Assembly: GCA_023386395.1 (NCBI GenBank)
Contig: JAEWJV010000199.1
Coordinates: 1-10,601, forward strand
Origin: Bacteroidota bacterium
Lineage (GTDB): Bacteria > Bacteroidota > Bacteroidia > Chitinophagales > Chitinophagaceae
Reading direction: 5' to 3'
Length of the DNA: 10,601 nucleotides
The position numbers and the translations under genes were made by a program. Under the pieces are notes generated by a model. It saw only the letters and a list, made by a program, of their open reading frames with translations. It ran no database searches and was not told the origin of the DNA. This document shows, one piece after another, positions 8,690 through 9,820 of the stretch (positions are counted from its first letter, which is position 1; every line of letters starts with the position of its first letter).

Positions 8690-9820
8690 ATGCAGCTATA
8701 TTGCAATTCGCTTACGGCATACGGCCGTTTAAAAACCCGTGAGGTAAAGATTGGAAATCTTTTATTGGGCAACCTTCATCCGGTGCGTGTGCAAACCATG
8801 ACGACTACCGATACGATGGATACAATTGCCACAGTTGAGCAAACCATCCGTTGTATTGAAGCCGGCGCAGAACTGGTGCGTATTACAGCACCTTCAAAAA
8901 AAGATGCGGAAAATTTACTCAACATAAAAAATGAGCTGCACAAACGTGGCTATACCACGCCGCTGGTGGCCGATATTCATTTCACACCAAATGCAGCAGA
9001 AATTGCAGCCCGTATAGTTGAAAAAGTTAGGGTTAACCCGGGCAATTATGTTGATAAGAAAAAGTTTGAACAAATTGAATATACCGATGCGGAATATGCG
9101 GAAGAAATAGACCGCATACGCGACCGCTTTACGCCGCTGGTTAAAATCTGTAAAGAATATGGAACGGCCATGCGCATTGGCACTAATCATGGTTCTTTGA
9201 GCGACAGGATCATGAGCCGTTACGGTGATACGCCGATGGGCATGGTGGAAAGTGCCATGGAGTTTTTGCGTATAGCGAGGAATGAAAGCTATCATAATAT
9301 TGTGCTGAGCATGAAGGCCAGTAACACACTGGTAATGGTGCAGGCTTACCGGCTGCTGGTTAATACCATGCTTGAAGAATTTGGAGAAATATATCCTTTA
9401 CATCTCGGCGTTACCGAAGCAGGCGATGGTGAGGATGGCAGGATAAAAAGTGCTGTGGGTATTGGCGCTTTAATGGAAGATGGATTAGGCGATACGATAC
9501 GTGTATCACTTACTGAAGACCCTGAATTTGAAATACCGGTTTGTAAAGATTTGGTGAAGCGTTATGAAAACCGGGAGCATCATTCACCCATAGCAGATTT
9601 ACTGCAGAAAATTAAGTCAACCGTCAACCGCCAACTGTCAACAGATGAAACCTCATCGGTTAGCCGTCAGCGATTAACATTACCCTACAATCCTTTTGAA
9701 TACAAACGCAGGATTACACATGAAGTAAATAATATTGGCGGCACATTGGTACCTGTTGTGGTGGCTGATTTTATGCAGAAAGAAAGAATCAATGCAGCAG
9801 ATTTAAAAGCCATTGGTTAA
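8690..9820 (+). CDS. ispG: IspG (HMBPP synthase), N-terminal part up to an in-frame stop
   Basis: IspG, the [4Fe-4S] (E)-4-hydroxy-3-methylbut-2-enyl-diphosphate synthase, converts MEcPP to HMBPP in the MEP isoprenoid pathway. I chose ATG 8690 (MQLYCNSL); it fits the exact -7 element just upstream. Residues 1-290 form the TIM-barrel domain: REVKIGNLLLGNLHPVRVQT (17-36), VADIHFTP, VRVNPGNY, MRIGTNHGSLSDRI, LSMKASN, LHLGVTEAGDGEDG and GLGDTIRVSLTEDP are all as expected. From about residue 330 the extra domain (A*) of the long bacteroidal/plant form begins. After residue 376 (DLKAIG) a TAA at 9818-9820 ends the frame, although homologous sequence continues in the same frame to the window edge. 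This product lacks the iron-sulfur domain and should be inactive alone. A 28-nt heptamer repeat lies in the linker (9616-9643). Confidence 0.93.
   Translation: MQLYCNSLTAYGRLKTREVKIGNLLLGNLHPVRVQTMTTTDTMDTIATVEQTIRCIEAGAELVRITAPSKKDAENLLNIKNELHKRGYTTPLVADIHFTPNAAEIAARIVEKVRVNPGNYVDKKKFEQIEYTDAEYAEEIDRIRDRFTPLVKICKEYGTAMRIGTNHGSLSDRIMSRYGDTPMGMVESAMEFLRIARNESYHNIVLSMKASNTLVMVQAYRLLVNTMLEEFGEIYPLHLGVTEAGDGEDGRIKSAVGIGALMEDGLGDTIRVSLTEDPEFEIPVCKDLVKRYENREHHSPIADLLQKIKSTVNRQLSTDETSSVSRQRLTLPYNPFEYKRRITHEVNNIGGTLVPVVVADFMQKERINAADLKAIG
9616..9643 (+). repeat. Four tandem heptamers, consensus GTCAACN, inside ispG
   Basis: Four contiguous 7-nt units (GTCAACC twice, then GCCAACT, then GTCAACA) encode part of the linker between the TIM barrel and the A* domain (KSTVNRQLSTDE). 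Only one unit deviates inside the first six bases. Twenty-eight is not a multiple of three, so simple insertion of the block would have needed a compensating change. Confidence 0.65.
9818..9820 (+). other. ispG: In-frame TAA interrupting ispG
   Basis: The codon order is GGT TAA AGT TAC TAT, in phase with both upstream and downstream coding sequence, so this is a nonsense codon and not a frameshift. A single base change from TAC or TAT (Tyr) would restore a plausible Gly-Tyr-Ser-Tyr-Tyr. Confidence 0.85.

Follow-up and report, generated by a model that had tools for sequence, protein, structure and literature searches.

A TAA codon within ispG of a Bacteroidota metagenomic contig, probably a sequence error near the contig end

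The ispG gene of a 10,601-base stretch of DNA, hereafter the window, is interrupted by an in-frame TAA. We judge this stop likely to be a local error of sequencing or assembly within a low-confidence stretch near the contig end. The window is apparently one whole metagenomic contig, which stops inside ispG 781 bases past the TAA. An error is favored because the stop was found in no examined relative, because it is clustered with other amino-acid changes private to the window, and because codons 390-637 are free of such private positions. The TAA would result from one incorrect base where the consensus is poor over a short distance, ∼780 bases before the contig end. The window ispG would then be an ordinary three-domain gene, from which the cell would produce full-length IspG for the conversion of MEcPP to HMBPP. 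The stop most probably reflects such an error; at the most, it would mark a broken allele of very recent origin, and not a new kind of gene. As a caution, lone stops near the ends of metagenomic contigs should not be taken as biology.

The ispG frame and the position of the stop

The features of the ispG region are as follows.

8690..9820, + strand: ispG 5' part of 376 codons and the stop, with the TIM barrel (A) and the onset of A* (NF002534, E 9.4e-141; PF04551, E 4.1e-88)
9785..9856, + strand: five clustered window-private amino-acid positions, stop included (codons 366, 377, 380, 386, and 389)
9818..9820, + strand: in-frame TAA (Tyr in 120 of the best 120 of 7998 homologues; 78 Tyr and 1 Cys in genome loci)
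9821..10600, + strand: ispG remainder, with A* and the start of the [4Fe-4S] domain (NF002534, E 9.3e-44; PF04551, E 1e-16)
10490..10510, + strand: CPSCGRT iron-sulfur cysteine motif (read from the sequence)
10589..10600, + strand: GCIV with the third cysteine (read from the sequence); the contig ends one base further

The original prediction described the TAA at 9818-9820 as a stop within an otherwise open ispG frame. The codon is indeed in the frame of the ATG at 8690, as codon 377, and the frame is open from 9821 to 10600 (260 codons). The start at 8690 is consistent with P0001, an intact IspG of 702 aa that headed the best 120 of the 7998 proteins scored and shares 98% identity across the whole window part; a TTG at 8681 is in frame with this ATG as well. 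P0001 is without the stop and differs from the window ispG at 12 of 637 positions, stop counted.

The assignment of both sides of the stop to IspG was confirmed. Residues 8-365, before the stop, correspond to positions 3-336 of model NF002534, and the part after the stop corresponds to positions 342-557. The GcpE TIM barrel was recognized by PF04551 over residues 16-298 (296 bits, cut-off 32), and the first part alone scored 317 bits with TIGR00612 (cut-off 280). Each part falls below the NF002534 cut-off of 886, as does intact P0001 (700 bits), which passes TIGR00612. The A* insertion, a domain that the accessible text of PMC10663253 describes in Bacteroidota IspG, is represented by the NF002534 matches that flank the stop. 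The barrel gave the best matches to solved structures, which covered at most residues 12-292 in the best stretch and did not illuminate A*. The original prediction had set the break between the barrel and A*. It does lie between two IspG parts, but not at the A/A* border: because the barrel match extends no further than residue 298, with the stop at codon 377, the TAA appears to sit within the early A* region, judging by where that match ends, and not at a domain junction.

The CPSCGRT and GCIV signatures both follow the TAA, as had been claimed, and contain the three Cys expected to bind the [4Fe-4S] cluster. The ligands of the IspG cluster are three Cys and one Glu, according to the accessible part of PMC11218510; the stretch expected to carry the Glu lies past the contig end. 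The description of the gene as otherwise intact holds for the open frame at 9821-10600 and cannot be asserted for the 3' end, since the window stops inside ispG. The window gene shares with the Bacteroidota form of IspG, which has three domains (A, A*, and B), the model match before and after the stop, the long insertion between barrel and cysteines, and the CPSC and GC cysteines. It differs in that its frame is not single and uninterrupted, owing to one in-frame stop (TAA 9818-9820, possibly a sequence error), and in that its 3' end is cut by the contig end.

The stop column in relatives and the reading of TAA

Homologues were collected by a protein search with an X in place of the stop, in which 7998 proteins were scored and the best 120 were listed, a list that favors full-length proteins. 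The alignment suggested by the original prediction gave Tyr at the stop column in all 120. At the genome level, the best 80 of 561 loci encoding a relative were taken and 79 were aligned, with L015 excluded for two Ns at the codon; the column reads Tyr in 78 and Cys in one. A stop at this column was therefore found in none of the best 120 of 7998 homologues and in none of the 79 loci from the best 80 of 561, and the TAA appears to be private to this contig among the relatives examined.

The whole of ispG is spanned by 75 of these best 80 loci (of 561), the other five being partial, and the gene is uninterrupted in 73 of the 75. The remaining two, L015 and L018, break at runs of N. Compared with these interrupted genes of draft metagenome assemblies (2 of 75 spanning loci, both at N runs), the break in the window is a substitution-type stop and not a gap or join. 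In L015, the two Ns (around 2996-3001) fall at the very codon of the window's stop, which is probably a scaffold or mask gap and a coincidence. Stops counted inside ispG of genomes G014 (TAA) and G011 (TGA) were set aside as off-column, with tblastn of P0001 showing none over residues 1-694. No relative was found in a scan of viral contigs, and a search with a 20-base pattern gave one match, L081, in which the surrounding DNA is dissimilar.

A Parafilimonas-like lineage whose sole ispG genuinely contains the TAA and yet yields the enzyme, either by read-through or as two separately translated pieces, is in our view very unlikely and lacks positive support. Read-through or suppression of the TAA with production of full-length IspG, which would fit the open frame on either side and the conservation of the stretch past codon 389, is on its own highly improbable. 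Nine other frames of the window were taken for genes, out of 20 frames of at least 80 aa with overlapping ones included, and they end with TAA in six cases and TGA in three. Since TAA closes six of these nine frames, nothing suggests that it is reassigned, and it is an ordinary stop here. ARAGORN found no tRNA, and so no suppressor candidate, within the window, the only place where a suppressor was sought. A recoded stop would be expected to be conserved in relatives, and this one recurs in 0 of the 120 homologues (best 120 of 7998) and 0 of the 79 loci (L015 left out).

A split IspG, in which a barrel fragment would assemble in trans with an A*-[4Fe-4S] fragment translated from a new start, draws some encouragement from the dimeric IspG of Thermus and Aquifex (as given in the accessible part of PMC11218510) and from in-frame TTG codons at 9908 and 9920. 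These, with a GTG at 10142, are the alternative starts ahead of 10175, where the frame has its earliest ATG past the stop, as originally predicted. This ATG lies 355 bases downstream, the break appears to fall inside early A* rather than between domains, and the gene is one frame in 73 of the 75 spanning loci of relatives, with the other two broken at Ns. We consider such an arrangement extremely improbable.

Window-private changes and the isoprenoid pathway

The differences between the window and P0001 were polarized with G014 as the outgroup, omitting gapped columns. Of the 12 differences in 637 positions, seven are private to the window, one is private to P0001, and four (codons 23, 321, 326, and 427) have a different residue in each of the three sequences and so resist polarization; of these, codon 427 lies past the cluster. 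Five of the seven window-private positions lie within 24 codons (366-389), the other two being codons 228 and 316, and none lies in codons 390-637 as polarized with G014. Under random uniform placement, five private positions within 24 codons have a p of about 1.5e-4 and four within 13 codons a p of about 7e-4, although the span was tested after being noticed and uniform placement ignores the lower conservation at the start of A*. Cluster sizes of 3 to 7 gave p values of 0.017, 0.0007, 0.00015, 0.0005, and 0.0014, respectively. Among the best 120 of 7998 homologues, the window state was absent at codons 377, 380, and 386, as well as at 228 and 316, and occurred in two homologues each at codons 366 and 389. 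Codon 386 is Trp in 110 of these 120 and Phe in the other 10.

We infer from this clustering that the private changes originate in sequencing or assembly and not in the cell. The cluster is not proof of an error, because natural differences cluster too: in the adjacent S9 peptidase gene, three sister-private changes fall at codons 346-349. Mismatches to G014 number 34, 37, and 29 per 200 bases across 9600-10199, compared with 7-28 in most other bins from 5000 on, and reach 32-39 per 200 bases at 6400-6599 and at 400-999. The densest amino-acid differences to G014 are at codons 427-439 (eight nonsynonymous) and not in the stop region. No repeats of at least 10 bases were reported in 9700-9950.

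A genuine and very recent nonsense allele, belonging to a minority or dying lineage or to a cell fed external isoprenoids and caught in the assembly, is the reading in which the TAA is taken as it stands. It would also accommodate the modest excess of window-private over sister-private changes in ispG (7 versus 1, compared with 10 versus 6 or 8 in the S9 gene). Relaxed constraint would be expected to spread changes over the whole gene, whereas the private ones fall in codons 366-389 apart from 228 and 316. Codon differences relative to G014 number 142 synonymous and 45 nonsynonymous in ispG, with the stop included, compared with 117 and 29, respectively, in the S9 gene; by these counts, both genes appear to be under ordinary constraint. 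With five of seven private positions in 366-389 and none in 390-637, the loss of constraint along the gene that marks a pseudogene was not seen, and on present sequence the pattern resembles a patch of bad sequence more than a decaying gene. A true nonsense allele is, in our estimation, unlikely, although it is the leading alternative to an error.

The dispensability of ispG was considered in 14 genomes of relatives. The second copy raised in the original prediction was sought with PF04551 in these genomes only; 13 have a single locus, and none was detected in G010. The locus consists of two PF04551 matches inside one open frame in 11 of the 13. IspH (PF02401) is present in 13 of the 14 and missing in G009, and Dxr (PF02670) is present in seven of the eight genomes searched for it and missing in G001. 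The Dxr of G009 is split in two, and one of the parts contains a TGA. HMG-CoA synthase (PF08540), the sole mevalonate marker tried, was found in none of the 14. Because the misses are on three different genomes and at different steps, we take them to reflect draft incompleteness. For a single genome missing IspG alone, the authors of a survey of bacterial genomes suggest an incomplete file in its accessible text (PMC10663253). These relatives appear to rely on the MEP pathway, since ispG, IspH, and Dxr are mostly present and HMG-CoA synthase is in none.

The single ispG locus in 13 of 14 genomes (none detected in G010) and the absence of HMG-CoA synthase from all 14 also argue against a genuine nonsense allele. 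The same ispG count, together with codons 390-637 being without window-private positions, speaks against an ordinary pseudogene in a genome that also carries another, intact ispG, a case to which we assign next to no probability. The accessible text of the survey, which covers 4,400 bacterial species, reports no convincing bypass of IspG and calls the enzyme 'evolutionarily rigid' (PMC10663253), and given this account a genuine loss of IspG would be notable. Among the explanations that the original prediction listed and left unranked, error is the favored one. Neither the window nor its relatives support reassignment of TAA, an additional ispG copy, or abandonment of the MEP pathway.

Shorter proteins and the contig neighborhood

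To look for truncations that had arisen independently at this point, shorter relatives were sought with the first ispG part, under length limits that favor fragments; 120 were listed, of which three were already known and 117 were new. The best alignment to P0001 ends at residues 365-390 in 13 of the 117 newly listed proteins, the window's own P0121 included, and among the matches listed it ends at residue 376 in P0121, P0179, and P0126. The likeness of P0179 (four members) to P0001 ends at 376, where the protein simply ends. P0126 (from 376) and P0123 (from 380) continue into unlike tails, as would chimeric joins or frame changes; in this they resemble the interrupted ispG of draft assemblies, turning into unlike sequence near the same residue. 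P0126 and P0179 do not come from one species, since their identity is 79%. A conserved break at ∼376 was not read from these proteins, the search being biased to fragments.

The 376-residue protein identical to the first ispG part has a single member in the protein collection, from one contig of 10601 bases, a length equal to that of the window, which is why the window is apparently a whole contig. P0238 and P0239 share 97% identity with the adjacent S9 peptidase, and P0239 carries the name Parafilimonas sp.; the contig is probably from a Parafilimonas-like bacterium of the Chitinophagaceae. G014, the best of eight genomes of one genus searched with P0001, has an intact ispG of 699 codons followed by a terminal TAA, and its nucleotide identity to the window is 89.8% over 5096-10601 and 86.8% over 1-1412. 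The contig as a whole does not appear error-ridden, because the other window genes with a G014 counterpart show no visible break, with the exception of the gene at 5087-5731, which may contain a frame change where it begins. The first 28 residues of this hypothetical gene match G014 also in another frame; either the start is misassigned or the frame may change close to it.

The window segment 1413-5095 (∼3.7 kb) contains two DUF2589 (PF11655) genes with a hypothetical gene between them. G014 lacks it at the corresponding position, and ∼100 bases separate the flanks there, which points to an insertion or a loss. At 5747-6403, the window encodes a LuxR-type response regulator (PF00072 and PF00196) with 96% identity in G014.
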